NCBI GenBank assembly: GCA_014860225.1
Contig: JACZKE010000060.1
Coordinates: forward strand, 1-64,000
Origin: Desulfuromonadales bacterium
GTDB taxonomy: Bacteria; Desulfobacterota; Desulfuromonadia; Desulfuromonadales; BM103
DNA length: 64,000 nt
Reading direction: 5' to 3'
The notes under the pieces were generated by a model. The model was given only the letters and a program-made list of their open reading frames with translations, had not been told where the DNA came from and did not search any database. A program made the position numbers and the translations under genes. Positions 17,773 through 43,458 of this stretch are shown piece after piece (position 1 is the stretch's first letter; each line of letters opens with the position of its first letter).

Positions 17773-17997
17773 ATTAACATCGATCAGGGAGATTGGATTC
17801 ACCTGTAACATATGGAAAACAAGAAGATAATGAGTTGCCAAAAATTAAACATGGTTATCGGGAGGTGATCGAAGAGCAGTAAACGAAGTCAGGTTTCCCA
17901 GGTCGTTGATTGTTTCTGGAGTCAATATCCAATCGGTTCTTTGATGATAACAATGGCATTGAAGAGTCAAAACCACAACAAACAAGGAGGAAGTAAA

Positions 17998-19203
17998 ATG
18001 TCACACAACAAAGATGTCAAGCGGACCCTCAAGAATGAAAGACTGGAATACCCGATCAAAATGATGCATGCTTATCCTTCCGTCAATGTCGGATGGGGCG
18101 CTCACACCATGGTTGGCAATGACGCCAAGGCGCTGGGCATGACCAACGCTCTGATCGTCACCACCGGCCTGCGCGGCACAGGTATCGTCGAAACAATCCA
18201 GGGTGTGCTGAAGGCCGCCGGGGTCGATTCCGATGTCTTCTCCGGAGTAACGCCGAACCCCAAAGACCACGAAGTTATGGCCGGCGCCAAGGTTCTGGCT
18301 TCAGGTAAATTCGACGGACTGATCAGCCTTGGCGGTGGTAGCTCGCACGATGCCTGCAAGGCGATCAAGCTGGTCCACAGCCATGACGGTCAGGATGTCA
18401 GAACCTTTGAAGGTGCCTTCAAGGCAACCAAAGCCAACACGGTTCCTCAGCTGGCCATCAACACGACTTCTGGTACCGGTTCGGAAGTTTCCTGCTTCTC
18501 GATCATCAATCACACCGACAAAAAGTACAAGATGGCCCTTTTTGATCCCAACTGCACGCCGAGCAAATCGGTCAATGACCCCCTGATTCATCAGTGCATG
18601 CCTGGCGACCTGGCTGGTTACACCGGCATGGATGCCCTGGCTCATGGCGTTGAAGCAATCAGTTCCCGGCTCGGTGTTGTCTCCGCGTATGGTCCTGGCC
18701 TGAGCGCAATATCTTTGATCTTTGGCAACCTGCGTCAATCGGCAATGAACAGAAACAACGACAAGGCGATTGAAGCGATGGTCTGGGCTGAAATGGCAGC
18801 TGCCTACAGCTTCAACAGTGCCGGCCTCGGCCTGATTCACAGTATGGCTCACGCTCTGGGCGGTATGTACGATGCTCCTCATGGTCTGTGTAACGCTATC
18901 GGTCTTGGTCCGGTCATGAAGTTCAACCTGCCGGCATGCCCTGAGCGCTTCAAGATGATGGCGCAAGCTGCCGGTATTGATGTAAACGGAATGTCCGATA
19001 TGAAAGCCGGCGAAGCATTTATCCAGGCTTGTCTGGATCTGAAAGCAGATCTGGGCATAACCAAGACCTTCAGTGATCTCGGTCTCCTGGAAAAAGACAT
19101 CGAAGGTCTGTCACGCTTCTCGGTCAACGATATCTGTACCGAAGGCAACCCGACAGACACCGGTCTGCAAGACATGATCGGAATTTTCAAGGAGTGCATG
19201 TAG
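17998..19203 (+). CDS. Iron-containing alcohol dehydrogenase, methanol-dehydrogenase-like, ADH2
   Basis: 401 residues from ATG 17998, which has AAGGAGGAAGTAAA directly upstream. Hallmarks are GGGSSHDACK (about residues 110-119), NTTSGTGSEVS, TGMDALAHGVEA and GLIHSMAHALGGMYDAPHG with the metal-binding histidines. The GGGSSHD loop and overall pattern resemble Bacillus methanolicus-type methanol dehydrogenases, whose NAD is tightly bound. Such nicotinoproteins need an external electron acceptor, and this enzyme is a good candidate partner for the mycofactocin made 8 kb downstream (inference). An extra polar N-terminal segment of about 20 residues precedes the usual start of the fold. It is probably monocistronic, with a strong terminator following, and sigma-54-controlled. 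Confidence 0.9.
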   Translation: MSHNKDVKRTLKNERLEYPIKMMHAYPSVNVGWGAHTMVGNDAKALGMTNALIVTTGLRGTGIVETIQGVLKAAGVDSDVFSGVTPNPKDHEVMAGAKVLASGKFDGLISLGGGSSHDACKAIKLVHSHDGQDVRTFEGAFKATKANTVPQLAINTTSGTGSEVSCFSIINHTDKKYKMALFDPNCTPSKSVNDPLIHQCMPGDLAGYTGMDALAHGVEAISSRLGVVSAYGPGLSAISLIFGNLRQSAMNRNNDKAIEAMVWAEMAAAYSFNSAGLGLIHSMAHALGGMYDAPHGLCNAIGLGPVMKFNLPACPERFKMMAQAAGIDVNGMSDMKAGEAFIQACLDLKADLGITKTFSDLGLLEKDIEGLSRFSVNDICTEGNPTDTGLQDMIGIFKECM

Positions 19204-19290: not shown

Positions 19291-19351
19291 CTTTAGCTGA
19301 TGTTCATCCTTGCGTCAGGCCAGTCAATTCATCATCAATGTGAGGCCAAGT

Positions 19352-20257
19352 ATGATTACCCAACAAGCGGTTTCCGATTTTCTCAACGCCGGCGGCTACA
19401 TCGCCGATGAAGCCATCGCTACCGCCGTTTTTCTGGCCATCCGCATGGAGAAGCCGATTCTGATAGAAGGCCCCCCGGGCGTAGGCAAGACCGGCTTGGC
19501 CAAGGCACTTTCCGCGGCCCTCGATTTCCCGCTGGTGAGACTGCAATGCTATGAAGGAATCGACGAAGGCAAGGCACTCTATGACTGGGAGTATGGAAAA
19601 CAGCTACTCTATACCCAATTACTGCGCACCCAGCTTGATAATTACATATCTGTCTCGGCTGATCTGCGCGAAGCCGTTGATCGGCTTTCTGCTGAAGAAA
19701 GCCTGTTCTTTTCAAAAAACTTTCTGGTGCAGCGGCCGATTCTGCGCAGTTTCCTCTCGGAAAAACGTTCGCTGCTGCTGATCGATGAGATCGACCGCTC
19801 CGACGACGAATTCGAAGCACTGCTCCTTGAGTGTCTGAGCGATTTCCAGATCTCGATCCCCGAACTTGGGGTGATCGAGGCCAAGCGCAAGCCGCTGGTG
19901 ATCCTGACCAGTAATGGTACGCGTATGATCTCCGACGCATTACGTCGGCGTTGTTTGTACCTCTATATCGGTTATCCGGAATTGGAGCGGGAAGTGGCAA
20001 TCGTTCGCGTCAGATTCCCTGAGCTCTGCGAGGACCTCGCAAGGCAGATGGTGGAATTCCTGCGTAAGGCCCGCGAACTGAATCTGCGTAAACCACCAAG
20101 TATTTCCGAGACCCTCGATTGGGCACATGTTCTTACCATCCTCAAGGCAACCGAGCTTACGCCTGAGGTGGTTGCCAGTACTGTCGGTGTGATTTCCAAA
20201 CACCAGACCGACCTGCAGAAGGTCACGGAGCTGGCTGAACAGGAACTGGCTTCGTAA
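19352..20257 (+). CDS. MoxR/CoxD-type AAA+ ATPase
   Basis: 301 residues from ATG 19352; an upstream start at 19310 is in frame but lacks a ribosome site. Walker A GPPGVGKT is near residue 40 and Walker B LLLIDEID near 140; LTSNGTRMISDALRRRCLYLYI is the sensor-1/arginine-finger region typical of MoxR proteins. The stop overlaps the start of the VWA gene by one base. MoxR/VWA pairs act as chaperones that insert or activate metal centres; in carbon monoxide dehydrogenase clusters the pair is CoxD/CoxE. Here a Mo-hydroxylase lies at 57-61 kb and Fe-ADHs lie on both sides, so the client could be either. Confidence 0.88.
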   Translation: MITQQAVSDFLNAGGYIADEAIATAVFLAIRMEKPILIEGPPGVGKTGLAKALSAALDFPLVRLQCYEGIDEGKALYDWEYGKQLLYTQLLRTQLDNYISVSADLREAVDRLSAEESLFFSKNFLVQRPILRSFLSEKRSLLLIDEIDRSDDEFEALLLECLSDFQISIPELGVIEAKRKPLVILTSNGTRMISDALRRRCLYLYIGYPELEREVAIVRVRFPELCEDLARQMVEFLRKARELNLRKPPSISETLDWAHVLTILKATELTPEVVASTVGVISKHQTDLQKVTELAEQELAS

Positions 20258-21672
20258 TGGAACGCATCATCACCCGTTTTGTCGCCGCACTGCGAGAGAG
20301 CGGGATTCGCATATCGCCTGGCGAAACTCTGGACGCGGTTCAGGCGCTGGCGCTGGCAAAAATGGAAGGGCGCAAGGCCTCGCGGTTGCTCCTGCGCTTG
20401 ACTCTGATAAAAAATGTCAATGACATCCCAACCTTCAATGAGGTTTTTAATTGCTTTTTCAATCGATTCCAGTGCGTCGAACCGGACGCGGATCTCCCCG
20501 CGCTTATGGATGCCGCGATCAATGACATGGACGGTGAATTTACTTATCTGAACGAGCACCGAGATGACGACCATGAAGAACCCGGTCCCCTTATCAAGCT
20601 CGACAGCGAGATTAGTCCGGAAGATCTGGCCGAGCTGAAAAGTCTCGCAGAGATTGACCCGGACGATTCGGACGGCACGGAAATCGTTATGCAGATGAAG
20701 GGCTATCGCGGCAAAGCGAAAAAGCCACCCCGGCCGACCAGGCGTTATACGCAGAATCCTCTCACCATAGAACTCAACAAGAGCAACAGTTATGGTCACC
20801 GTGTCACATTTACCCCTGAAGAACAGGCTGCCATGCAGGATGTCGTATCAAAGATGATGCTGCGCCTGCGTAAAGATATGCGGCGCATGAAGACCAACCA
20901 AAATCGCGGCAAATTGCACGTCATGAAGACGATTCAAAAAAATTACCGCCATGATATGGTGCCTTTTCAGGTGATATTGCGTCGCAAACGCCGGGAGAAA
21001 CCGCGCCTGGTGGTCCTTTGCGACGTCAGCTTTTCCGTAAGCCATGCTTCGCGTTTCATGCTGCTGTTGCTGCATACCCTGCATAATCAGCTGCTTGACG
21101 TGCGCAGTTTCATTTACAACCGGGATCTGGCTGAAATTACAGAAATGCTGGCCAATATGCCAGTCAACGACCTGATGGAAACCATCGATCACGGAGATAT
21201 TGTCGATCTCGATGAAAACAGCAGTTTTGGCCAGGTTTTTTTGAAATTTAAAAAAGATTATCTTGAAAATCTGCGAGGCCGACCGGCCTTTATCATTCTC
21301 GGCGACGCACGCAACAACTACGATGAGGCCAACGACTGGGTGCTTGACGAAATCCGTGAGAAAGCCCGTTACATGCTCTGGCTGACACCCGAAGATCGTG
21401 AAACCTGGAGTCGCGGCGACTGCTTGATGGACATCTACGGATCCTATTGTGACAAGGTGGAAGTTGTGAAGACGGTCGACGATCTGAGTCTGGTCGTCGA
21501 AGACCTGCTGCGCGATATCTATGCCGACCAAGCCCATCCGATCGACAGAAAACTGCTGCGTGAAGCCAAGGCAGCCGAAGCAAAAAGCTATGATTCCAGC
21601 GACTATTACCGTCGTGGTACAAACAACGACAGCGAGCCGGTATTCGACCCTGAAGGGCGAAAACACTGGTAA
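20257..21672 (+). CDS. CoxE-like VWA-domain protein
   Basis: 471 residues. The acidic N-terminal half (DPDDSDGTEI, EHRDDDHEEPG) is followed by a basic linker and a C-terminal VWA domain. Its MIDAS motif is DVSFS (near residue 255), and RPAFIILGDARNNY continues the fold. It overlaps the MoxR-type ATPase gene, and the two form a chaperone pair as in CoxDE. The tail is rich in Lys, Asp and Ser. The predicted site is the cytosol or inner membrane face. The client protein is unknown; maturation of the Pao-like molybdenum enzyme at 57.6-61.7 kb or of an Fe-ADH are the two obvious options. Confidence 0.85.
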   Translation: MERIITRFVAALRESGIRISPGETLDAVQALALAKMEGRKASRLLLRLTLIKNVNDIPTFNEVFNCFFNRFQCVEPDADLPALMDAAINDMDGEFTYLNEHRDDDHEEPGPLIKLDSEISPEDLAELKSLAEIDPDDSDGTEIVMQMKGYRGKAKKPPRPTRRYTQNPLTIELNKSNSYGHRVTFTPEEQAAMQDVVSKMMLRLRKDMRRMKTNQNRGKLHVMKTIQKNYRHDMVPFQVILRRKRREKPRLVVLCDVSFSVSHASRFMLLLLHTLHNQLLDVRSFIYNRDLAEITEMLANMPVNDLMETIDHGDIVDLDENSSFGQVFLKFKKDYLENLRGRPAFIILGDARNNYDEANDWVLDEIREKARYMLWLTPEDRETWSRGDCLMDIYGSYCDKVEVVKTVDDLSLVVEDLLRDIYADQAHPIDRKLLREAKAAEAKSYDSSDYYRRGTNNDSEPVFDPEGRKHW

Positions 21673-25484: not shown

Positions 25485-25976
25485 TTATGAGTGACCGGTT
25501 TCCGCAAAAAATCTTACTACTATCTCGGTATGCATAGGAAAGCCCAGCTCAATGGGCTCTTCTATCAGCACAACCTCCTGGGTCTCCTTTGAGCTGAAAG
25601 GTTTCAGATTGTCCGGGGATTGTTTTGCTGCCAGGCCGAAGACCACAAGAGTGTCATCCAGGCCGTTCTGGACATCATACAGACCTATCTCTTCGGCCTC
25701 AATGGCGATGCCGGTTTCTTCGAGCAATTCTCGCCTTCCACCCTCCTGCCAGGTTTCGCCCACATCGATATATCCCCCGGGCAACGTGAGGGTTCCTTTC
25801 TGAGGCTCGATGTTTCTGCGGATAACAACAAGACCTGCAGCAATCGGCAGCAGTACCACGACGACCGGAAGCGGGTTGCGGTAGGATCTGTTGCCACACT
25901 TGCGACACGTTCTCGGCCAGGGGTCTGTGGTGAACCTGCACCCGCAAAATGAACAGTGGAAATTTTTTGACAGCAT
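25485..25976 (-). CDS. NUDIX hydrolase with N-terminal zinc ribbon
   Basis: 163 residues from the ATG at 25974-25976 (GGAGC upstream). The N-terminal zinc ribbon CSFCGCRF...CRKCG is joined to a NUDIX domain with the full Nudix box GGYIDVGETWQEGGRRELLEETGI, spanning about residues 70-93. Such proteins hydrolyse nucleoside diphosphate derivatives such as NADH or ADP-ribose; the zinc ribbon recalls the NudC subgroup, although this protein is shorter. It is cytosolic and monocistronic. It is convergent with the HK2 gene across a MITE-like element and divergent from the mycofactocin locus. Confidence 0.88.
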   Translation of the reverse strand: MLSKNFHCSFCGCRFTTDPWPRTCRKCGNRSYRNPLPVVVVLLPIAAGLVVIRRNIEPQKGTLTLPGGYIDVGETWQEGGRRELLEETGIAIEAEEIGLYDVQNGLDDTLVVFGLAAKQSPDNLKPFSSKETQEVVLIEEPIELGFPMHTEIVVRFFAETGHS

Positions 25977-26140
25977 GAAAGCTCCATCGATTTTGTCTTG
26001 AATCGTGCCCTGGAGAGCGACGCCAGGCTGTCCTGATATCAATTTTACCTCGAATGGGGATGGAGAATATGGTTTTTTTACGGTTTTTATTCCTTAATAG
26101 ATTAGTTGGCACCAAAAAACAGAACGTAGGTTGATTTATT

Positions 26141-26304: not shown

Positions 26305-26320
26305 TGGCATCACCGTTGCA
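26305..26320 (+). promoter_or_regulatory. Sigma-54 promoter of the mycofactocin operon
   Basis: TGGCATCACCGTTGCA matches TGGCAY-N5-TTGCA with GG-GC spacing of 12. The mftA start is 66 bases downstream. A GTAGAGAA-type site lies about 140 bases upstream. Confidence 0.8.
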
Positions 26321-26385
26321 ATGTTGTGATGTTAACGATGCGCAACTTCCGATTCGCGCAAAACCAAATTTCAAAGGAGCAAGAC

Positions 26386-26505
26386 ATGGAAAAGAAATTC
26401 GAAGCAGAAAAACAAGAGCAGGAAAGCTGTAACGAAGAGCCTCAGGTGCTGGAAGAGATCCAGGTCGAGGAACTGGCGATCGACGGCATCTGCGGGGTCT
26501 ACTAA
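26386..26505 (+). CDS. mftA: Mycofactocin precursor peptide MftA
   Basis: 39 residues, acidic and rich in Glu, ending in IDGICGVY. The family C-terminus is IDGMCGVY in Mycobacterium, so this is a near-exact match with Met replaced by Ile. MftC oxidatively decarboxylates the last Tyr and links it to the preceding Val; later enzymes free and modify this dipeptide to give the redox cofactor mycofactocin. ATG 26386 follows AAAGGAGCAAGAC, an ideal ribosome site; longer upstream readings to 26299 run through the sigma-54 promoter and are wrong. The upstream acidic stretch should be the leader bound by MftB. Confidence 0.95.
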   Translation: MEKKFEAEKQEQESCNEEPQVLEEIQVEELAIDGICGVY

Positions 26506-26506
26506 G

Positions 26507-26755
26507 ATGGCTGCGGCGGGCATCAAGCTGCATCCCGCCTGCCGCGTGCGGCGGGAAAGGTTCGGCCTCCTGTTTTACGATTCGCGGGGGCCGCGCCTTC
26601 TCTTCGCCGAAACCGGCAGTCTGCTTGCCCCGGACTATTTTGAGTCGGTGCGGAGCAGGCAAGATCTTCCGGAGGGATTATCCGCGCAGCAAAAAAAGGT
26701 GCTGCAGAACTTTATTACCAAGCTGCTGGAAAGGGGGTTTCTCCGTGAGCAATAA
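26507..26755 (+). CDS. mftB: Mycofactocin chaperone MftB (RiPP recognition element)
   Basis: 82 residues, a PqqD-like winged-helix RRE. The family patterns are visible: LHPACRVRRERFGLLFYDSRGPRLLFAETG, then LSAQQKKVLQNFITKLLERGFL. MftB binds the MftA leader and presents it to MftC. The start lies one base after the mftA stop and the end overlaps the mftC start by 11 bases, so translation of the three genes is tightly coupled. Confidence 0.93.
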   Translation: MAAAGIKLHPACRVRRERFGLLFYDSRGPRLLFAETGSLLAPDYFESVRSRQDLPEGLSAQQKKVLQNFITKLLERGFLREQ

Positions 26756-27788
26756 ATTTGTCGAACAGGGGCTGCGCTCTCCGGTAAACCTGACCTGGGA
26801 AGTGACCCTGGCCTGTAATCTGCGTTGCCGTCACTGCCTGTCTTCCTCGGCAGAGCCGGCAGCAAATGAACTCAACACGGCCGAAGCCCTTGCCCTGGTT
26901 GAACAGCTGCATCAGGAGGGTGTTTTTCAGATTAATTTCGGTGGCGGCGAGCCCTTCATGCGCCCTGATTTTTTGCAGATCCTCGATGCCTGCCACGCCA
27001 GGGGTATCATGACCTGCATCTCGACCAACGGCACGCTGATTACCCCGGAGCTCGTCGAACAGCTCTCGCGCACCCGCCTGGTGGCCATTCAGGTCAGTCT
27101 GGACGGCGCAGAAAAAAGTACCTGTGAGGCGATTCGCGGCAAGGGCACCTTTGAGGATGCAATCAAGGCTCTTGAACTGCTGACCCTTTCACCGATTCCG
27201 ACCAGCATCAATACCGTGTTGACCAAAGAGAATGCCGACGAAATCCAGGCGATGCAGCAACTCGCCGAGCAGCTTGGCGTCACTTTGCGAATCAGTCGCT
27301 TCCGGCCGTCAGGGCGGGGCGCAGACAATTGGGAAGAGCTGCGGCCGTCACCATCACAGCTGCTGGCATTTTCGGCTTGGTTGGCCGAAAACAATAATGT
27401 TCGCACCGGAGACAGCTTTTTCTCGCTGACCTCCCAGGAGCGACAGGGGCTGGGGCTGAACCTTTGCGGTGCCGCCAAGTTGACCTGTTGTGTCAGTCCG
27501 ACCGGGATGGTTTATCCCTGTGCCTTTTTGCAGAGTGATCGCTTTGAAGCCGGGGACCTGCGGCAGAACAGTTTTAAGGAAATCTGGGACAACTCGGAGA
27601 TCTTCGAGTCGTTCCGTGGGCTGCGCATTCATTCCTGCGAGGACTGTCAACGTTTTGACCAGTGCCACGGCGGATGCCCGGCGGTCGCCTATCATCTTAA
27701 AGACGATATCCAGGGTGGCGATCCGGAGTGTCTCGAGCGTTGTGTGACCTCGATCGCGGATGACAGAAAAAAATCCAACGCGGCCTGA
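26745..27788 (+). CDS. mftC: Mycofactocin radical SAM maturase MftC
   Basis: 347 residues from GTG 26745, behind AAGGGGG; starting further upstream would overlap all of mftB. The radical SAM motif is CNLRCRHC (about residues 22-29), then GGGEPF. The C-terminal SPASM domain holds CCVSPTGMVYPCAF and CEDCQRFDQCHGGCPA, giving ligands for two auxiliary Fe-S clusters. MftC decarboxylates and then cyclises the C-terminal Val-Tyr of MftA. Length and motif order match the family. It lies directly behind mftA and mftB, and a 9-bp hairpin follows it. Confidence 0.95.
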   Translation: MSNKFVEQGLRSPVNLTWEVTLACNLRCRHCLSSSAEPAANELNTAEALALVEQLHQEGVFQINFGGGEPFMRPDFLQILDACHARGIMTCISTNGTLITPELVEQLSRTRLVAIQVSLDGAEKSTCEAIRGKGTFEDAIKALELLTLSPIPTSINTVLTKENADEIQAMQQLAEQLGVTLRISRFRPSGRGADNWEELRPSPSQLLAFSAWLAENNNVRTGDSFFSLTSQERQGLGLNLCGAAKLTCCVSPTGMVYPCAFLQSDRFEAGDLRQNSFKEIWDNSEIFESFRGLRIHSCEDCQRFDQCHGGCPAVAYHLKDDIQGGDPECLERCVTSIADDRKKSNAA

Positions 27789-27794
27789 TCTGCA

Positions 27795-27817
27795 GGGACG
27801 ATCCTGGTGATCGTCCC
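27795..27817 (+). promoter_or_regulatory. Intercistronic hairpin after mftC
   Basis: GGGACGATC and GATCGTCCC form a perfect 9-bp stem with a 5-base loop, 7 bases after the mftC stop. No U-tract follows. It may protect the mftABC message or lower expression of the downstream electron-transfer genes. Confidence 0.5.
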
Positions 27818-27862
27818 ATGCATTACAATAATGATTTCGCGTTATTGACGGAGACCTGAACC

Positions 27863-29824
27863 ATGATGTTCCAAAACCTTTTCTCACCTCAGAAGCTCGG
27901 CAAGGTAGAAGTTAAAAACCGTATCTCTTTTCAGCCGCATTTGACCAACTTTGCTGAAAATTGCCTGCCGAGTGAACGGCACATGTACTACTGGGGTGAA
28001 CGGGCCAAGGGCGGTGCCGGGTTGATCACTACCGAGGAGATGAGTGTCCATCCCACCGATACAGCCTATGAGAAGCTTGTTGAGGCATTTCACCCGGAGG
28101 TTATCCCCGGCTTTCGCAAGATTACCGATTACGTTCATCAATATGACACCAAGATGTTCTGTCAGCTTAATCACAATGGCCAGCAATGCGACGGCAGCAT
28201 CTCGCGTTTACCGGTCTGGGCGCCGAGCCCGGTGCCCGACATCCTTTTTCGCGAAACTCCTAAAGCGATGGAGATTGAGGATATTGAAGAGGTCTGCCGT
28301 TTCTTCGCGATCAGCGCAGAACATGTGCGTCAAGGAGGTTTTGACGGTGTAGAACTGCAGTTCGGCCATTCGAGCCTGGCGCGCCAGTTCCTCTCGCCGT
28401 TGACCAATTACCGCCAGGATGAGTTCGGCGGCAGCCTGGAGAACCGCATGCGCGCGCCGCTGATGTTTATCAAAGCGGTGCGCAGGGCGGTCGGTGATGA
28501 TTTCACTCTCGGCATCCGTATGTGCGCCGACGAAATGATTCCCGGTGGGCTTGATCTGGCCCAGGTCCAGGAGATCTGTGTGCTCTTCGAGGCCAGTGGT
28601 CTGATCGACTTCGTCGACTTGTCGATCGCCACCTTTTACAACCTCTACCTAGTCGAAGGTTCCATGCACACGCCGCTCGGCTATACCATTCCCCTGGCTG
28701 CCGGGATCCGTGAAAAGATCGAGCTGCCGGTATTCTGTACCGGGCGGATCAATGATCCGGTGATGGCCGAGAAGGTGCTCGCTGCCGGTCAGGCCGACAT
28801 GATCGGCATGTGTCGGGCCCTGATCTGTGATCCCTTTCTGCCGAAGAAGGCAGAAGAGGGCAGGCTGGAAGATATCCGCTCCTGCATTGCCTGTAACCAG
28901 GGCTGCATTGGCCGCATGGGGGTCAACCGGACCCTCGGCTGCGTGCAGAATCCGGCGGTCGGCCTGGAAAAGCAATGGGGCGAGGGCACCCTCAGGCCGG
29001 CGCCGGTCAAGAAAAAAGTCATGGTTGTCGGTGGCGGACCCGGCGGCATGTGGGCGGCCAAGATGGCCGGCCGTCGCGGCCACGACGTCACCTTGTACGA
29101 TCGCAACGAAGCCCTGGGCGGCCAGGTGCTGACCGCCATGAAGGGGGCCGGACGCGACGAGTTCGGCGTGATCATCCGCAATGAAAAAGAACAGGTTGAC
29201 AAGGCCGGGGTCAAGGTGGAACTGGAGACTGAGGTGACCGCAGAGCAGCTGCTGAAAGCAGGAGCTGACACGATCATCGTCGCCACCGGCAGCAAACCCA
29301 AAGCCCACCCGGTGGGTGGCGCAGACGGAGCCGGAGTCTACAACGTTTGGCAGGTGCTGGATGGCCAGGCTGAGCTGGGTGAAAAGATCTGCCTGATCGA
29401 CTACGACGGCCATCACCGCGCTACGGCAACCGCCGAATTCCTCGCCGATCAGGGAAAAAATGTGCACATTATCTGCTCCAGCCTGTTTATCGGCGCGGAG
29501 CTCGGGCCTACCCAGGACTTGTACCTGACCCGTCAGCGGCTGTTGGGTAAAGGTGTTACCTTCACTCCTGATATAGCCGTTATGGAAGTTTCCGGCGACA
29601 TTGGTGAGAAGTCGGTGAAGGGCTTCAACGTCTATTCCAACGCCTGGGACGAATGGGGCCCGTACGATAATCTGGTGTTGGCCATGGGACAGGAAGTTGA
29701 CGAAGACCTCTACTTTGCGCTCAAGGGCAAAGTCAAAGAGCTTTACCGGATTGGCGATTGTGTGGCTCCCCGCAAGGTCGACATGGCCATATGGGAAGGC
29801 CACAAGGTGGGGAGGGAAGTCTGA
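27863..29824 (+). CDS. Mycofactocin-associated FadH/OYE-family flavin oxidoreductase
   Basis: 653 residues, the layout of 2,4-dienoyl-CoA reductase. An FMN-binding TIM barrel of the old-yellow-enzyme type spans residues 1-340 (VKNRISFQPHLT, FDGVELQFGHSSLARQFLSP, DEFGGSLENR). Four cluster cysteines lie in CIACNQGC and the following GCVQNP. An FAD/NAD-binding half follows (VVGGGPGGMWAAKMAG near residue 395). Members linked to mycofactocin loci are a recognised subgroup of unknown substrate. With mftD absent, this flavoenzyme may process the MftA-derived dipeptide or reoxidise mycofactocinol and pass electrons to the ETF that follows; both are inference. GGAG precedes the start; the stop overlaps the next ATG. 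Confidence 0.88.
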   Translation: MMFQNLFSPQKLGKVEVKNRISFQPHLTNFAENCLPSERHMYYWGERAKGGAGLITTEEMSVHPTDTAYEKLVEAFHPEVIPGFRKITDYVHQYDTKMFCQLNHNGQQCDGSISRLPVWAPSPVPDILFRETPKAMEIEDIEEVCRFFAISAEHVRQGGFDGVELQFGHSSLARQFLSPLTNYRQDEFGGSLENRMRAPLMFIKAVRRAVGDDFTLGIRMCADEMIPGGLDLAQVQEICVLFEASGLIDFVDLSIATFYNLYLVEGSMHTPLGYTIPLAAGIREKIELPVFCTGRINDPVMAEKVLAAGQADMIGMCRALICDPFLPKKAEEGRLEDIRSCIACNQGCIGRMGVNRTLGCVQNPAVGLEKQWGEGTLRPAPVKKKVMVVGGGPGGMWAAKMAGRRGHDVTLYDRNEALGGQVLTAMKGAGRDEFGVIIRNEKEQVDKAGVKVELETEVTAEQLLKAGADTIIVATGSKPKAHPVGGADGAGVYNVWQVLDGQAELGEKICLIDYDGHHRATATAEFLADQGKNVHIICSSLFIGAELGPTQDLYLTRQRLLGKGVTFTPDIAVMEVSGDIGEKSVKGFNVYSNAWDEWGPYDNLVLAMGQEVDEDLYFALKGKVKELYRIGDCVAPRKVDMAIWEGHKVGREV

Positions 29825-30852
29825 TGGTTGCAAAATACCTTCAGCATGAGAATCCCCCGCCGGAAATCCTGGTGTTTGTGGATTTGCCTGACGGCGAGTT
29901 GGACGAAACCGGTAAAGGCATCCTGTCGGAAGCCTCCAGGCTGGCGAACACCCTGGGCTGCAGCTGGGCAGCCCTCTGCTTCGACGCTGCAACGGACCAG
30001 GCAATCGAAGGCTTCTCCCCTTACGGGACCGCGCGGGTCACTCTGATCGAAGCTCCTGACGGTATCTGTGACTCCCTTGAGGCCCAGGGGAACCTCATCG
30101 CGCTGGCCGCCAGTAAGCTTGAAGCCAGGCTGCTTTTGCTCCCGCATAACGATCTGGGCGGGGCTTTGGCCCCGATACTGGCATCAGCATGGAAGAGCGC
30201 ACTGTTCACCGAGGCGATCGCCTACAGCGGAGATAATGACACGCTGAAACTGACCAGGTCGATCCTGGGTGCTCAGGTTGCAGAGTCGAAAATCTGGAAC
30301 AGCAGGAATCCGCTGGTTCTTACGATAAATCCGCGTGTTTTGAGTGCTGTGGTGATGCCTTCCATGCGCCACACGAAGGTTCAGATCGAACGCTGGCAGC
30401 CGTCAGTGCCGACTGCCGCAGGCTTGACCAGGATCATCCAACGGATTCCACCGGATCCGCAAACAGTCGATGTCTCTGAAGCCGAGGTGATTATCAGCGC
30501 CGGGCTTGGCTGTAACGAGAAAACCTTCGCTCAGGTTGAGGAGTTGACCCGACTGCTCAATGCCTCGCTTGGTGTGACTCGTCCGGTTTACGATCTCGGC
30601 TTTGCCGGCTTCGAGCGGATGGTCGGCCAGACGGGCAAGACTGTCGCTCCCCGGCTCTACCTGGCCCTGGGAATCTCCGGATCGATGCATCACCTTGGCG
30701 GGATTAAGGATTCCAGGCAGATTGTATCGGTTAACATCGACCCGAAGGTGCCGATTTTCCCCAATTCAGATGAAGGATTTGTCGCAGACCTGCGTGACGT
30801 GCTGCCTCTCCTGATTGAACGTGTTAAAGCAGCGACAGGAGGTGCCGCATGA
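29824..30852 (+). CDS. etfA: Electron transfer flavoprotein alpha subunit (FixB-like)
   Basis: 342 residues from ATG 29824, which overlaps the OYE stop by one base. The C-terminal FAD domain is standard: ALGISGSMHHLGGIKDSR, then VSVNIDPKVPIFPNSDEGFVADL. The N-terminal domain is more divergent. With EtfB at 32458 it forms a heterodimer that carries electrons from a dehydrogenase to the membrane protein FixC. Its place inside the mycofactocin locus, separated from etfB by fixC and fixX, marks it as a dedicated ETF. It overlaps fixC by four bases. Confidence 0.88.
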   Translation: MVAKYLQHENPPPEILVFVDLPDGELDETGKGILSEASRLANTLGCSWAALCFDAATDQAIEGFSPYGTARVTLIEAPDGICDSLEAQGNLIALAASKLEARLLLLPHNDLGGALAPILASAWKSALFTEAIAYSGDNDTLKLTRSILGAQVAESKIWNSRNPLVLTINPRVLSAVVMPSMRHTKVQIERWQPSVPTAAGLTRIIQRIPPDPQTVDVSEAEVIISAGLGCNEKTFAQVEELTRLLNASLGVTRPVYDLGFAGFERMVGQTGKTVAPRLYLALGISGSMHHLGGIKDSRQIVSVNIDPKVPIFPNSDEGFVADLRDVLPLLIERVKAATGGAA

Positions 30853-32147
30853 AACGCACATATGACGCGATAGTCGTCGGTGCCGGTCCGGCCGGTTCGT
30901 CGGCGGCCCTGACCATGGCTCGGTCCGGTCTCAATGTAGCCCTGCTCGAACGGGGGTCCTTCCCGGGTGAGAAGAATATGTTCGGCGGCGTCCTCCATCG
31001 CATGACGGCTCTCGAAGAGGTCTTCCCCGACTTCTGGAACCAGGCCCCGTTGGAGCGTCACGTCGTCCAGAAAAACCTGTCCTTCATCACCGAGGGGTCG
31101 TGCTTCAACGTGAGCTTCGATAGCGAAGAAGCGGATCGCCCCCCCTACAATGGCTACACCATTTTTCGCCCCAGATTCGATCACTGGCTGGCAGGGGAGG
31201 CGGTTAAGGCCGGAGCGACACTGCTGACGCGCTCGACTGTCGATGATGTGATCATCGAAAACGGCAAGGTTGCTGGAGTGACCTTGTTGCGTGATGAGGC
31301 ACAACTGCGCGCCCCGGTGGTGATCGCTGCGGACGGCGTGCTCTCCTTTACCGCTAAAAAGGCAGGTCTGCGGTCTGCTGAATTCAGTCCGTCCAACCAG
31401 GGAGTCTGCATCAAAGCGTTGATTGATATGACCAAAGAGGTCATCGACGACCGCTTCGGTCTGGTGCTTAATCAGGGAGCCTCCAAGGAGATCGTTGGTT
31501 GCACGTCCGGCGTGCGTGGCGGCAGCTTCCTCTATACCAATTATGATTCCCTCTCGCTCGGCATGGTCCTGGAATTAGCCAGTTTGAATGAAAAGGGCAA
31601 AACTCCCTACGATCTGCTCAACGCGTTCATGCAGCAACCGCAAATGGCCAAACTCCTTAAAGGGGGGCGACTGCTCGAATACTCTGCGCATCTGGTTCCC
31701 AAGGGTGGCTATGACATGAAGCCCGAGCTCGTCGGCGATGGCATCATGGTTGCCGGCGACGCTGCGGCATTCTGCATCGTCACCGGACTCAATCTGGAGG
31801 GGATCAACCTGGCCGCGCAATCCGGAGTGCTGGCCGGCAAGGCGGCGATCGAGGCTCACCGGCAACGCGACTTCAGCAAATCGAGCCTGACGGTTTATCG
31901 GAAAATGCTGGAGGAGAGCTTTGTTCTCAAGGATCTCAAGCTTTACAAGCGTGCGCCGCAGATGCTGCACAACGACCGTATTTACAGTCAGTATCCTGAG
32001 CTTGTCTGCAGCATGATGGATGAGATCTACCGCATCGACGGCAAGCCGAAAGACACCATGACCAGAATGCTGCTGAGCAAGGTTAAAAAAACGGTCGGCT
32101 TGAAAAATCTGATGGCCGATGTCTATTCCGGATGGAGAGCCTTATGA
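30849..32147 (+). CDS. fixC: FixC-like ETF:quinone oxidoreductase
   Basis: 432 residues. The N-terminal FAD motif VVGAGPAGSSAALTMARSG lies near residue 7, NMFGGVL follows, and the second FAD segment is GIMVAGDAAAFCIV near 300. FixC-type proteins take electrons from ETF and give them to quinone at the inner membrane, working with the ferredoxin-like FixX. Starts and stops overlap the neighbours on both sides by four bases (ATGA). In this locus it would connect mycofactocin or the OYE enzyme to the quinone pool. Confidence 0.9.
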   Translation: MKRTYDAIVVGAGPAGSSAALTMARSGLNVALLERGSFPGEKNMFGGVLHRMTALEEVFPDFWNQAPLERHVVQKNLSFITEGSCFNVSFDSEEADRPPYNGYTIFRPRFDHWLAGEAVKAGATLLTRSTVDDVIIENGKVAGVTLLRDEAQLRAPVVIAADGVLSFTAKKAGLRSAEFSPSNQGVCIKALIDMTKEVIDDRFGLVLNQGASKEIVGCTSGVRGGSFLYTNYDSLSLGMVLELASLNEKGKTPYDLLNAFMQQPQMAKLLKGGRLLEYSAHLVPKGGYDMKPELVGDGIMVAGDAAAFCIVTGLNLEGINLAAQSGVLAGKAAIEAHRQRDFSKSSLTVYRKMLEESFVLKDLKLYKRAPQMLHNDRIYSQYPELVCSMMDEIYRIDGKPKDTMTRMLLSKVKKTVGLKNLMADVYSGWRAL

Positions 32148-32428
32148 ACATCAATCTTGATGAAATCTTCGATTACACGAGCTTTAATGTCGATCGTGAC
32201 CCGCATATCATCCTTGATGAAAACCTCTGCAAAGTGTGCGACCAGAGATACTGTGTCAATGCCTGCCCGGCGCGTTGTTATGCCTGGTCGGAAGAAGAAC
32301 AGAAGATGACCTTTGTCCATGATGGCTGTCTTGAGTGTGGAACCTGCTATGTGGTGTGCGAAAAGAAGGCCTTCACCCGTTGGCGGTACCCGCGCGGCGG
32401 TTTCGGTGTGTCTTACCGAATGACTTGA
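32144..32428 (+). CDS. fixX: FixX-like ferredoxin
   Basis: 94 residues from ATG 32144, which overlaps the fixC stop and has GGAGAG upstream; an ATG at 32132 is four residues longer and less likely. The cysteines CKVCDQRYCVNAC and CLECGTCYVVC give the ligand set of a FixX-type ferredoxin. It ends in the usual basic tail (RYPRGGFGVSYR). It acts as the Fe-S subunit that completes FixC. It is followed after 29 bases by etfB. Confidence 0.92.
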   Translation: MNINLDEIFDYTSFNVDRDPHIILDENLCKVCDQRYCVNACPARCYAWSEEEQKMTFVHDGCLECGTCYVVCEKKAFTRWRYPRGGFGVSYRMT

Positions 32429-32457
32429 GTCGGCAACAGGCAACAGGAGAAGACATC

Positions 32458-33354
32458 ATGACGAAAACAGCTATGCAGATGCTGGTGCTGCTCAGAGAAA
32501 CCTGCGATCCCAAGCCACCGGCAAGGCTGACCGCCGACGGCTACGGGGTGCGTGAACGCGGCCTGCGCCGTATCGCCAATCCGGCCGACCTGTGTGCGCT
32601 CGAGATGGCGATGCAGCTGGCCGACAGCAATAACGGCACTGTGACGGTGTTTGCCATCGGCCCCGACCGGCTCGATGACCATCTGCGCCTGGGGCTTGCC
32701 ATGGGGGCCGGTCGCGCGCTGCGTGTCTGGAACCCGGCTTTCCAGGGAGGCGATGCAGTCTCAGAAGCACGACTCGTGGAACAGATTGTCAATATCCTTG
32801 AACCAGACCTGTTCTTTACCGGCAGCCGGCTGCTCGACCGTGGTGGAGATCCTGCGCCCGCGCTGGCGTCAGCCAATCTCGGCAGGCCATATGTCACCTC
32901 TGCCCTGGCGATTGCATGCAGCGATGGTGAGGTCGAGGTGCTGCGCAAAAGCGATCGGGGTGCCCGACAACGGGTCCGTGCAATGATGCCCTGCACGCTG
33001 CTGTTTGAAGCTGATAGCTGCGAGCCCCGTTATCCGGATCAAGATGCACTGATCAGGTCGCTTGATATAACAATTGAAGTTTGGGATAGGCCTGAACTTG
33101 GTCTGTGCCTGTCTGTCCTGGGTGCACCCGGAGCGCTTCTTGGTAAAGATAAGTGCAGTTTCCCCCGGGTGAACCCGAAACGCATTGTGACCCCGGATGC
33201 AAATTTACCAGCTTTTGAAAGAATCCTGGCTCTGTTGTCCGGTGGTATTAAACCACGGCAAGGTAACGTCCATGCCGTCTCCACGGCGCAGACAGTTGAC
33301 ATGCTGTACGATATTTTTGAAGCTGAAGGACTGATCGGTGGAGGCGGGGCATGA
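32458..33354 (+). CDS. etfB: Electron transfer flavoprotein beta subunit (FixA-like)
   Basis: 298 residues from ATG 32458, behind CAGGAGAAGACATC; the frame is open upstream from 32335 but that part overlaps fixX. EtfB hallmarks are NPADLCALEMAMQL, then LGLAMGAGRALRVW and the nucleotide-binding stretch TGSRLLDRGGDPAPALASANLGRPYVT. The carboxy-terminal part is longer than in housekeeping EtfB and unusual in sequence. It pairs with the EtfA at 29824. It overlaps mftF by four bases (ATGA), which ties the electron-transfer genes to mycofactocin glycosylation in one transcript. Confidence 0.88.
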   Translation: MTKTAMQMLVLLRETCDPKPPARLTADGYGVRERGLRRIANPADLCALEMAMQLADSNNGTVTVFAIGPDRLDDHLRLGLAMGAGRALRVWNPAFQGGDAVSEARLVEQIVNILEPDLFFTGSRLLDRGGDPAPALASANLGRPYVTSALAIACSDGEVEVLRKSDRGARQRVRAMMPCTLLFEADSCEPRYPDQDALIRSLDITIEVWDRPELGLCLSVLGAPGALLGKDKCSFPRVNPKRIVTPDANLPAFERILALLSGGIKPRQGNVHAVSTAQTVDMLYDIFEAEGLIGGGGA

Positions 33355-34784
33355 TTTACCGGTTGGTAAAGGGGGTCACTGCTCAGGAAACCGCTGATGG
33401 TGGGTTCCTGGTCGCATCGCGGCCGTTGCGTATGCTGCGTTTGAACCCGTCCTTGTTGAAACTGGTGCGACGCATGGGGCGGGATTGGCTGACTCCTGCA
33501 TCAACCGCCGAAATGAACGTGTTGGAAACCCTGGCTAAGAGAGGATTTGTCGAAAGACAGTGGCAGAGCCTCAGCCTTTCCGGGAACCTGCCTACGATCA
33601 GCGTTATTATTCCGGTGAAAGATCGCGCTGATGATCTGCGTAACTGCCTGACCTCTCTGCAAGAACTTGAATATCCACAACACAAGCTTGAAGTCGTGGT
33701 TGTCGATGATGGCAGCAGCGACGATACCCCCCGTGTTGCTGAGGAGCTTGGCGCTGTTCTGGTCGAATCAGGTCAGGTTGCAGGCGGCCCGGCTTTGGCT
33801 CGCAATAAAGGCGCTGCGGTTGCCAGTGGCGAGATTCTGGCCTTTATCGATTCGGACTGTACTGCATCACAGCAGTGGCTGATGGAACTCCTGCCGGTTT
33901 TTGCCGATGCGGATGTTGCGGCCGTCGGTGGCCTGGTGGATGGCATGTACACCGAATCCGCCCTGGATCGCTATGAAGCCGTCATGTCGAGCTTGAACCT
34001 GGGGCGCAGGGAAATGTCCGGAGGGCAGGGGGGTGATACCTTCTACCTCCCCAGTTGTAACCTTCTGATGCGCAAGGAGGCGTTTACCTCTGCCGGAGGA
34101 TTTCGTTCCGAACTGCACGTAGGTGAGGATGTTGATCTGACCTGGCGGTTACGCGATGCCGGCTGGAAAATTGTATATCTGCCCAGAGGGACGGTTTTTC
34201 ATGCCCATCGCAGCAAACTCTGGCCTTTTATGAAGCGGCGTTTCGAATATGGTACATCGGAGGGGATGCTTCAGCAGCTTCATCCGGTCCGGGGCAAAAA
34301 AATGATTGTGCCACCGATGTTGGCAGCCATTTTGTTCCTTTTAGCTTCAGCGCTAATCTGCCAATCATTGCTGCCCCTAGCGGTGGCAGCCGTCCTGCTG
34401 CTGGGTGATACGGCTTTTGTCACCACGAAAATGCGCAGGCAGAAGTTGCCGATCTCGTTTGTTATGGTTCTTCTGGCGCGCGCGCGCTCAGTCGGAAGTC
34501 TCGGCTACTATCTTGGTTATCATCTGTTGCGATACTACCTTGTCCCCCAACTTCTGGCCGCTATCATTTATCCACCGCTCGGTCTGCTGACTCTGGTTAT
34601 GCTCCTCGGGGCAGGAGGGGTCGATTACCGGGTACGCAAGGCCAGGCTTACGCCCATCGGGTTTTTCCTTTACTACTTTCTTGAACAACTTTCCTACGGC
34701 AGTGGTGTCTTCTGGGGATGTGTACAAACGAAGAGCTTTACCAGTTACAGGCTTGACGTAAACGGTATTTCGCAAAACATCTGA
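33351..34784 (+). CDS. mftF: Mycofactocin glycosyltransferase MftF
   Basis: 477 residues, the family length. The N-terminal 80 residues look like a PqqD-type winged helix (VKGVTAQETADGGFLVASR, LLKLVRRM), followed by a GT2 domain: ISVIIPVKDRADDL, VVDDGSSDD, FIDSDCTAS, and VGEDVDLTWRLRDAGW near the catalytic base. Several membrane segments follow (residues 320-430). MftF attaches beta-1,4-linked glucose units to the mycofactocin core. Its presence confirms the locus as mycofactocin and not another RiPP. It is the last gene of the run; a 155-base spacer and a MITE-like element follow. Confidence 0.92.
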   Translation: MIYRLVKGVTAQETADGGFLVASRPLRMLRLNPSLLKLVRRMGRDWLTPASTAEMNVLETLAKRGFVERQWQSLSLSGNLPTISVIIPVKDRADDLRNCLTSLQELEYPQHKLEVVVVDDGSSDDTPRVAEELGAVLVESGQVAGGPALARNKGAAVASGEILAFIDSDCTASQQWLMELLPVFADADVAAVGGLVDGMYTESALDRYEAVMSSLNLGRREMSGGQGGDTFYLPSCNLLMRKEAFTSAGGFRSELHVGEDVDLTWRLRDAGWKIVYLPRGTVFHAHRSKLWPFMKRRFEYGTSEGMLQQLHPVRGKKMIVPPMLAAILFLLASALICQSLLPLAVAAVLLLGDTAFVTTKMRRQKLPISFVMVLLARARSVGSLGYYLGYHLLRYYLVPQLLAAIIYPPLGLLTLVMLLGAGGVDYRVRKARLTPIGFFLYYFLEQLSYGSGVFWGCVQTKSFTSYRLDVNGISQNI

Positions 34785-36634: not shown

Positions 36635-36801
36635 ACTATCCGTGAGTGCGCATGATTCCGTTCGTGCCGCTCGCATTTCAACGTCTCTTCAAGTTATAGT
36701 TACGGTCATTGCGTCTGAAACGCGTAAGTTTCCGTCAGGAGTTTCCGGATGGACTCGAGATATAGATAGGGCTTCAAGTGGCTAAGCTTCTAGAGGTGTC
36801 T

Positions 36802-37941
36802 ATGGTGGATCAAGGTCGCAGAGCAGTAAAGCTTCTTGTAAATGGTTTCCGTTATCGTTTTCTGAAACTTACGGGAAATGCGTCTCGGCTGCAGGCAATC
36901 AGTCTCGAGGTTACCCACCGATGTATCTGCCGGTGTTGCATGTGCAATATCTGGCGCATTCCAAAAAAGATTCCGGACCTCGACCTGTCTGTCTGGACCG
37001 ACCTGCTCTCTTCTCCGCAGCTCAAGGACTTGCGGGAGCTCGACATCACCGGCGGCGAGCCGTTCCTGCGCGATGACCTGACGGAGTTGCTGTCCTGGAT
37101 ATGTCGGGTTCAGCCTGACCTGTTCCCCAAACTGCGGACTGTGGCCATCACCACGAACGGCATACTGACGGATAAAATATTACAGTGCGTGGAAGACGTC
37201 ATTGGTCCCATGCAGGCACGGGGGATCGACCTGGTGCTGGCGTGCGGCATGGATGCTGTCGGAGCACTGCATGACCAGATTCGCAACTTCAAGGGAGCGT
37301 GGCAACGACTCAACAGCACCCTCGCCGGTCTGTGCGCGTTGAGAACGAGCCATGCCAACCTGGTGCTGGGTATCAAAACCACCATTGTTCCGATGAATGT
37401 CAACGAATTGCATCGTATCGCCCTGTTTGCGCGCGAGCATGCCCTCTTCACCATCGTCTCGCCCTGCATCATCACGACAAACCGTTTCGCCAACCTTGGC
37501 CTGGCGGATGATCTGAAATTTGATACAGCCGCTCTGCAGGCCATGAAGCGCTTTTATCAAGGTCCGGAATTTGCCTGGAGTGGCCATCGGCAGGCCATGT
37601 TGCGCTATCTTGAGACAGGCCATATGAAAAAGCCCTGCTCCGCTGGCTTCAACACGGTTTTTGTCCGCCATACCGGTGAAGTTTTCCCATGCCCGGTCAT
37701 TCCGGTCAAGCTGGGCAACATCTGCCACGAGAAACTGGGAACGCTTTTGGCGAGCGCCGGATCGGCACGGTTCCGCAGGCATATCGGTACTTTTACAGAG
37801 TGCCGCACCTGCACCGAGCCAGGTCTTGAGCGCATTGCCTGGCCCTTCGAGGGTTTCAGCTGCCTGCGTCGCATGAGCGGGCTGGGGACGAGAGACTTCG
37901 ATCGCCTGGCCCGACATATGGGGCTCGACAAGTACCTGTGA
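36802..37941 (+). CDS. Radical SAM/SPASM-type protein of unknown role
   Basis: 379 residues from ATG 36802 (AGAGGTGTCT upstream; GTG 36778 is an alternative). The cluster motif CICRCCMC fits C-x3-C-x2-C, and LDITGGEPFLRDDL follows. The C-terminal part has MKKPCSAGFNTVFVRHTGEVFPCPV and ECRTCTEPG, a shortened SPASM-like region. It precedes an EamA transporter and a TehB-like methyltransferase in the same orientation, with gaps of 34 and 18 bases, suggesting an operon that makes and exports a small modified metabolite. No precursor peptide is evident. The function is not known. Confidence 0.8.
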   Translation: MVDQGRRAVKLLVNGFRYRFLKLTGNASRLQAISLEVTHRCICRCCMCNIWRIPKKIPDLDLSVWTDLLSSPQLKDLRELDITGGEPFLRDDLTELLSWICRVQPDLFPKLRTVAITTNGILTDKILQCVEDVIGPMQARGIDLVLACGMDAVGALHDQIRNFKGAWQRLNSTLAGLCALRTSHANLVLGIKTTIVPMNVNELHRIALFAREHALFTIVSPCIITTNRFANLGLADDLKFDTAALQAMKRFYQGPEFAWSGHRQAMLRYLETGHMKKPCSAGFNTVFVRHTGEVFPCPVIPVKLGNICHEKLGTLLASAGSARFRRHIGTFTECRTCTEPGLERIAWPFEGFSCLRRMSGLGTRDFDRLARHMGLDKYL

Positions 37942-43181: not shown

Positions 43182-43458
43182 TCTAGAATCGAACAGGTTG
43201 GGCTTCTGGAGCTTTACTGCCCATAAAGCAGTGTCACAACCGACAAGGAATGGAATGCCGTGCTTTTGCTTAACGCAATACTAGAGATTGCGGGGTTGTA
43301 GCGTCATCTCTGAAAGTTGAAAGCTTCCGGTCCTGTTACCTGTTAAGGGGTCGTTCTTAAAGCACAGGGTCTATGGTATAGTTGGAAACGCCTATGTATC
43401 CCGAATGGAAAAGAGCGTCTTCACTTACGTACATAACTTCTAAAAAAGGAGAATGGGA

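Follow-up and report, generated by a model that had tools for sequence, protein, structure and literature searches.

The Desulfuromonadales genome analysed here carries a mycofactocin operon with five genes in the mftD slot, right after mftC, and we propose that these genes do the work of MftD. The operon lies in a 64,000-nucleotide stretch of DNA (the window; C6:1-64000 of the 3.94 Mb, 68-contig genome G000). The five genes encode OYE2, a flavoenzyme related to old yellow enzyme (OYE), the two subunits of an electron transfer flavoprotein (ETF), and proteins similar to FixC and FixX. We put the probability that this module (OYE2-EtfA-FixC-FixX-EtfB) is a non-orthologous replacement of MftD at about 65%. 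A replacement of MftD, the pre-mycofactocin synthase, by OYE2 is strongly favoured by the presence and absence of genes: OYE2 and MftD exclude each other in 57 of 58 mftC-containing genomes of the class and in 24 of 24 from actinobacteria.

MftD performs the oxidative deamination of AHDP, the dipeptide derived from MftA. M. smegmatis makes no mycofactocin without MftD, and merely less of it without MftE (PMC7491314). A genome with mftABCF and no MftD therefore needs a substitute enzyme, and a missing MftE should be easier to cover.

Gene content of the operon

We identified genes with NCBIfam profiles and their curated cut-offs and read the junctions off the DNA. They confirm the earlier note on this DNA, which had described mftABC-OYE-etfA-fixC-fixX-etfB-mftF from the sequence alone. 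From 26386 to 34784 on the forward strand, the genes form one compact operon, preceded by a promoter element:

26305..26319, + strand: sigma-54 type -24/-12 promoter element TGGCATCACCGTTGC, from a motif scan; 81 bases upstream of the mftA ATG
26386..26505, + strand: mftA, precursor peptide, 39 amino acids, C-terminal IDGICGVY (NCBIfam)
26507..26755, + strand: mftB, chaperone (TIGR03967, 60.3 bits; cut-off 33)
26748..27788, + strand: mftC, radical SAM maturase, GTG start (NCBIfam, 343.5 bits; cut-off 265)
27863..29824, + strand: OYE2, flavoenzyme with FMN, 4Fe-4S and FAD-domain parts, 653 amino acids (TIGR03997); proposed AHDP dehydrogenase replacing MftD
29824..30852, + strand: etfA, ETF large subunit (NF038209, below cut-off)
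30849..32147, + strand: fixC, flavoprotein of the ETF:quinone oxidoreductase type (FixC-like; best solved match 7koe_C, 276.9 bits)
32144..32428, + strand: fixX, ferredoxin-like, 9 Cys (FixX-like; alternative start 32132)
32458..33354, + strand: etfB, ETF small subunit (best solved match 1o94_C)
33351..34784, + strand: mftF, glycosyltransferase (TIGR03965, 384.6 bits; cut-off 280)

Adjacent genes overlap by one base (OYE2/etfA), four bases (etfA/fixC, fixC/fixX and etfB/mftF) or eight bases (mftB/mftC), and there are gaps of 74 bases between mftC and OYE2 and of 29 bases between fixX and etfB.

The operon qualifies as a mycofactocin biosynthesis cluster, as mftA, mftB, mftC and mftF are all over their curated cut-offs. 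(MftA exceeds two of them, with 46.8 bits to variant_MftA, NF040489, cut-off 30, and 43.8 bits to TIGR03969, cut-off 25.) OYE2 belongs to TIGR03997, the mycofactocin FadH/OYE oxidoreductase 2 family, at 959.9 bits (curated cut-off 793). The ETF subunits score below the cut-offs of the mycofactocin ETF families (144.9 bits against 240 for NF038209 and 71.5 against 200 for TIGR04503), and they form a divergent branch that occupies the same place in the operon. The FixC and FixX proteins also score below the cut-offs of the corresponding models. NCBI's family names already connect OYE2 and ETF with mycofactocin, and this connection is therefore not new here.

The earlier note saw no mftD or mftE in the window. 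In the whole genome, no match to MftD (TIGR03966) or MftE (TIGR03964) was found at 1e-10, and no match at all to MftG (TIGR03970), so this is not a canonical mftABCDEF system. The genome has a single MftA, a single MftC and, at 1e-120, a single OYE2. The suggestion that MftD and MftE are encoded elsewhere, perhaps beside a second mftA, is thus ruled out by the whole-genome profile search.

Distribution of the module and of MftD

First, we examined 277 genomes of the class. MftC was matched at 1e-60 in 61 of them, and we kept 58 as having a true mftC. (The other three, G065-G067, score about 209 bits against the cut-off of 265 and 136-140 bits to the window's MftC; these matches were taken as other radical SAM proteins.) Among the 58 genomes, 55 have OYE2 only, two have MftD only, one has both, and none has neither. 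In 55 genomes the fetched mftC locus contains OYE2, either complete or truncated at a contig end; in the 56th, G200, it is at the start of another contig. The comparison of locus content across relatives that the earlier note had proposed thus gives OYE2 in 56 of 58 genomes. In 43 of the 58 loci, OYE2, etfA, fixC, fixX, etfB and mftF all follow mftC (42 as open frames; the fixX of L053 was missed as an open frame and recovered by tblastn). The remaining 15 loci are two of the MftD type and 13 that run into a contig end.

Counting only proteins over the cut-offs, the 277 genomes have MftE in none, MftD in three and OYE2 in 58. These 58 comprise 53 genomes with mftC and five without a counted mftC (G042, G065, G178, G210 and G236). 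In those five, OYE2 is close to the end of a contig, and in four of them a truncated mftC adjoins it. (In G065, the module is present near a contig end though its MftC match was dropped.) In this class, the OYE2 module without MftD or MftE is the rule, not the exception. We identified no substitute peptidase for MftE. Creatininase-like proteins below the threshold occur in 161 of the 277 genomes, in 37 of the 58 with mftC and, at 1e-10, not in G000, so they do not track mycofactocin.

Second, MftD and the module have been exchanged within the class. In G083 and G087, mftC runs directly into mftF, and the fetched locus has no OYE2, etfA, fixC, fixX or etfB. Both genomes encode MftD over the cut-off (666.9 and 649.9 bits). 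The mftD of G083 adjoins a NUDIX gene on the strand opposite to the operon, and that of G087 lies about 18 kb from the operon. Both have module-bearing relatives under the same genus label (G077 and G079 for G083; G086 for G087). The listed completeness is 76% for G083 and 99% for G087. In a tree of MftC with 65 rows, G087 pairs with the module-bearing G086 at 100/99, and the starred branches force two separate changes between MftD and the module for G083 and G087.

Third, the pattern is repeated in actinobacteria. Here the sample was 217 genomes drawn evenly from the phylum to which the actinobacterium of L157 belongs, and 24 of these have MftC. MftD is over the cut-off in 19, and OYE2 is present in exactly the other five, together with the ETF set. 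(One MftD genome, G323, has a weaker OYE match of 562 bits, below the cut-off.) The mycofactocin-type EtfA model is over its cut-off in 3 of 31 genomes searched, all among these five; the remaining two, G282 and G468, have an etfA within the operon that scores 127.5 and 126 bits, respectively. In G373 and G470, the parts are spread over three contigs, one with mftC, mftA and a second type of OYE (OYE1), one with OYE2, and one with etfA-fixC-fixX-etfB and an mftF-like gene. MftD was not found in either genome, and mftB was not found there by profile. These two genomes retain all parts of the module, though outside the mycofactocin operon. Fisher tests of OYE2 against MftD give p = 0.0018 for the class and p = 2.4e-5 for actinobacteria, but they ignore kinship and so overstate the association.

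Fourth, we considered plasmids and a few named loci. (The sampling of lineages covers the class, actinobacteria, plasmids and named loci.) There were 12 plasmid records with MftC, and we opened eight and rechecked them by profile. Four have the module and, within the opened stretch, no mftD (two Streptomyces and two haloarchaea), and four have mftD and no module. The other four records, from Streptomyces, have OYE2 nearby by its coordinates, the check for mftD having covered the opened eight. Among five further genomes from named loci, G278-G281 have OYE2 over the cut-off and no MftD over the cut-off. (The G278 assembly has two mftB-mftC copies, L149 and L150, one with the module and the other without it in the fetched stretch.) Overall, the 58 genomes of the class, the 24 actinobacterial genomes and the eight plasmid loci strongly favour one of the options raised by the earlier note, that the OYE protein replaces MftD.

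The actinobacterial mftABCDEF(G) cluster shares mftA, mftB, mftC, mftF and the MftA ending IDGxCGVY with the window; the window lacks mftD, mftE and mftG, and its mftA is preceded by a sigma-54 element. A 2024 study describes 17 Saccharopolyspora clusters which, like the window, have TIGR03997 and no mftD, and calls the OYE protein one of unknown function (PMC11162802). Those clusters match six of the seven mycobacterial genes, more than the window does, and the section on them does not mention ETF or FixCX. The same paper, citing a primary report, says that S. erythraea produces a methylated mycofactocin. If so, mycofactocin is made in an OYE2-type strain without mftD, and this report slightly raises our confidence that the module replaces MftD. 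As annotated, the Streptomyces plasmids NBC_00334 and NBC_00564 have the window's order OYE2-etfA-fixC-fixX-etfB and no mftD in the opened stretch, and add OYE1 and mftE; the window differs in that its ETF subunits are below the NCBIfam cut-offs. In the haloarchaea, Haloterrigena turkmenica pHTUR01 and Halolamina CBA1230 have the module, AAA and VWA genes nearby, and no mftD in the opened stretch. They differ from the window in that the module comes after mftF in the reverse orientation, and mftA has mftE or a creatininase-family gene next to it.

Proposed chemistry and its rivals

If the module replaces MftD, then MftB would bind MftA and MftC would cyclise its Val-Tyr end, as is established for mycobacteria. 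As no MftE is encoded, some other peptidase would release AHDP. OYE2 would then abstract a hydride from the amine-bearing carbon of AHDP, and the resulting imine would be hydrolysed to the keto-amide, pre-mycofactocin (PMFT). From the roles of these protein families, we infer that electrons would pass from the iron-sulphur cluster of OYE2 to the dedicated ETF, on to FixC/FixX, and then to quinone. The sugars would be attached by MftF.

The sequence of OYE2 is consistent with this chemistry. It has an OYE barrel, a 4Fe-4S motif (the window's protein keeps all four cysteines, CCCC) and a C-terminal flavin/nucleotide part. It aligns from end to end with trimethylamine dehydrogenase and histamine dehydrogenase, which have the same FMN barrel, 4Fe-4S motif and C-terminal domains. 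In contrast, its main alignment with dienoyl-CoA reductase ends at OYE2 residue 532, and the second stretch is worth 6.9 bits. Among solved structures, EtfB scores highest against the ETF in the trimethylamine dehydrogenase complex entry (1o94_C, 79.9 bits; the next is at 66.1). There is a parallel in nicotine degradation: Pno, an FMN/4Fe-4S relative that releases methylamine, is clustered with etfAB and a gene for ETF-ubiquinone oxidoreductase, and its electron path is a prediction too (PMC5500553). In 23 of 74 mycofactocin-associated OYE2 rows, the second cysteine of the 4Fe-4S motif is an aspartate (CxxDx3C; for example L032:7101-9062, L074:2501-4462 and L153:5431-7398), possibly a natural ligand exchange in several branches.

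OYE2 also seems not to draw on NAD(P)H. The GxGxx[GA] motif is linked with NAD(P)H, and in the second Rossmann segment it is absent from all 72 mycofactocin-associated OYE2 rows; 7 of the 14 covered paralogue rows have it. OYE2 thus lacks the motif expected of FadH, the NAD(P)H-dependent dienoyl-CoA reductase, and because of its absence we predict that OYE2 is independent of NAD(P)H. The printed sequences of the amine dehydrogenases likewise lack the motif.

Several observations count against the module as a substitute for MftD. By score, OYE2 is closer to 2-naphthoyl-CoA reductase and dienoyl-CoA reductase than to the amine dehydrogenases. Where trimethylamine dehydrogenase (1djn) has PHC, OYE2 has PHL, and so lacks the flavin-linking cysteine, which carries the 6-S-cysteinyl FMN. 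Active-site residues of trimethylamine dehydrogenase are not all conserved. The loss of GxGxx[GA] is not specific to OYE2, as the three closest paralogues and four covered OYE1 rows also lack it. The predicted structure of OYE2 has a mean pLDDT of 65.4, and its relatives tie at Z 28.2-30.0 in a VIA alignment, where the full-length rows are less than 2 Z apart, so the model only confirms a predicted OYE, dienoyl-CoA reductase or amine dehydrogenase fold without choosing among them.

Some genomes also fit poorly. G124 (L085, L093 and L094) has the module in its operon and two mftD copies on other contigs; it is the sole genome with both, and its listed contamination is 7%. The OYE2 of G150 (L066:11579-12910) lacks residues 37-279. 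(This gap is an internal deletion or a misassembly, and fixX is divided over two frames in the same genome.) Anaeromyxobacter sp. RBG_16_69_14 (G277, L151) has mftABCF and neither MftD nor OYE2 over the cut-off, which is either a third solution or an incomplete assembly. (A gene for a GlpC-like iron-sulphur protein follows on the other strand.) OYE1 is also beside mftC in NBC_00334, NBC_00564, G373 and G470, and might do the MftD step there. More generally, a respiratory ETF chain seems elaborate for a step in biosynthesis, the module is also found in aerobes, and the enzyme activity of OYE2 is a prediction.

The class is known mainly as anaerobes. The MftD step has been called aerobic (PMC8406134), and anaerobes such as the relatives of Geobacter would be well served by a substitute linked to quinone. 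However, because plasmids of Streptomyces and haloarchaea carry the module and three genomes of the class have MftD, oxygen would account for the module in part at most. As these plasmids show, the module is not confined to anaerobes.

Another possibility, and the one that the earlier note had in mind for the ETF and FixCX proteins, is that they reoxidise reduced mycofactocin. The module would then be a mycofactocinol dehydrogenase, analogous to MftG, that passes electrons from OYE2 through ETF-FixCX to quinone, and some other enzyme would do the MftD step. An ETF and a FixC-type quinone reductase would fit a high-flux respiratory outlet, and the reported potentials of PMFT (-255 mV; PMC7491314) and menaquinone (-74 mV; PMC10734219) go in the same direction. 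MftG is over its cut-off in none of the 13 module genomes tested (five actinobacterial and eight from the class), and a paper on MftG leaves open what replaces it in about 25% of MftC genomes (PMC11778925). But the absence of MftG is not peculiar to module genomes. MftG exceeds its cut-off in five of the 24 actinobacterial mftC genomes. These five all belong to the 19 with MftD, the other 14 of which lack MftG (OYE2 against MftG, p = 0.54). In a second test, TIGR03970 was over the cut-off in none of 16 genomes, including G083 and G087. G087 has neither the module nor MftG and does have MftD, which points to MftD as what stands in for the module. Also, the essential keto-amide step would have no enzyme in any module genome. 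We consider a pure MftG analogue unlikely: the module excludes MftD almost without exception, and reoxidation is not specifically supported.

The module may nevertheless reoxidise the cofactor as a second function. One quinone-linked chain could do both jobs, with OYE2 deaminating AHDP and reoxidising the cofactor, and so replace MftD and MftG together. We offer this dual role tentatively; if true, it would tie the making and the recycling of a peptide-derived cofactor to respiration without oxygen.

OYE2 might instead be a client coupled to mycofactocin, such as an ETF-fed ene-reductase, that neither makes nor recycles the cofactor. Reduction of C=C bonds is common among enzymes of the OYE/FadH family, and by score the best solved match of OYE2 is 2-naphthoyl-CoA reductase. 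Yet for a client one would expect neither the exclusion of MftD nor a place within the biosynthetic operon in almost all loci of the class, and the numbers of client dehydrogenases vary between genomes (PMC3023750). This makes a client role improbable.

Finally, EtfA-EtfB-FixC-FixX could be an electron-bifurcating NADH complex like EtfABCX of Thermotoga and be in the operon by chance. The four subunits are the same, and the best match of FixC is the Thermotoga FixC (7koe_C). A paper on bifurcating Etf describes three group motifs and an arginine essential for bifurcation (PMC10734219; its subunit names appear swapped relative to ours, so that the arginine is in our large subunit). That arginine, part of RPxFGG, is conserved in 64 of 73 EtfA rows. 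However, the group-2 bifurcation motifs are absent from the module's ETF (RPxFGG in 0 of 73 EtfA rows, RxGV in 0 of 64 and GxxSPTxV in 2 of 64 EtfB rows, with one general ETF row omitted from the EtfB set) and from the window's proteins, and because of this a straight path from OYE2 through ETF and FixC/FixX to quinone is likelier than bifurcation. As EtfB is also most similar to the ETF of trimethylamine dehydrogenase, a chance neighbour of this kind is very improbable.

Genomic setting and significance

The promoter element is nearly universal in the class. Five of the 58 loci yielded no mftA start; of the other 53 (the window and loci among L032-L088), 52 have the strict motif TGGC[AC]N6TTGC within 350 bases before mftA (block shuffles gave a mean of 0.12 and at most 3). 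Both MftD-type loci also have a sigma-54 -24/-12 element before mftA. In the window, elements of this kind are also found upstream of the aldehyde oxidoreductase gene and of one alcohol dehydrogenase gene. Beyond mftA, the strict motif is upstream of 8 of 41 aldehyde oxidoreductase genes, 3 of 7 FeADH2-like genes, 0 of 7 FeADH1-like genes and 0 of 36 NUDIX genes. A looser scan of the whole window gave 16 matches with 12.6 expected, which is the level of chance.

Two iron-type alcohol dehydrogenases (11681-12838 and 17941-19203) are encoded in the window, as is an aldehyde ferredoxin oxidoreductase-like protein (43453-45198); none of them reaches an NCBIfam equivalog cut-off. Iron-type alcohol dehydrogenases linked to mycofactocin were reported in Geobacter uraniireducens in 2011 (PMC3023750), and the use of methanol by Geobacter pickeringii has been tied to the mycofactocin pathway (PMC4358379). 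A NUDIX hydrolase gene (25485-26042, - strand) adjoins mftA, and its cluster recurs in 29 of the 72 loci compared. In Bacillus methanolicus, NUDIX proteins act as activators of iron-type NAD alcohol dehydrogenases. An AAA (19310-20257) and VWA (20257-21672) pair is near the window's mycofactocin genes and also beside the module in the two haloarchaeal plasmids. Downstream of the operon is a further radical SAM/SPASM gene (36778-37941), whose cluster adjoins mftF in several loci.

The window's operon was probably gained by horizontal transfer, because relatives in the genus and family lack mftC and its MftC groups with another family. At 1e-60, MftC is absent from 10 genomes of the same genus and 11 others of the same family (G002-G009, G020-G022). 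In the tree, the window's MftC falls in a group of 10 rows (100/99), mostly from another family.

Parts of this picture are already in print, namely the NCBI names for the OYE2 and ETF families and the Saccharopolyspora clusters with OYE2 and no mftD. In the open literature searched, we did not find the ETF-FixCX link or an exchange with MftD across lineages. One paper names the old yellow enzyme family, but only for some Pseudomonas reductases.

MftD makes the redox-active centre of mycofactocin in a step called aerobic (PMC8406134), yet the class retains the pathway without MftD. With a candidate replacement that brings an electron chain of its own, and with natural exchanges between related genomes, this gap can be tested directly. 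The module is also a candidate answer to the question of what stands in for MftG in the quarter of mycofactocin genomes that lack it (PMC11778925). The annotation of clusters without mftD would change as well, 17 of them having been misfiled by a genome-mining rule (PMC11162802). Judging from the genomes, the near-perfect exclusivity of the module and MftD points to a putative second way of making mycofactocin.

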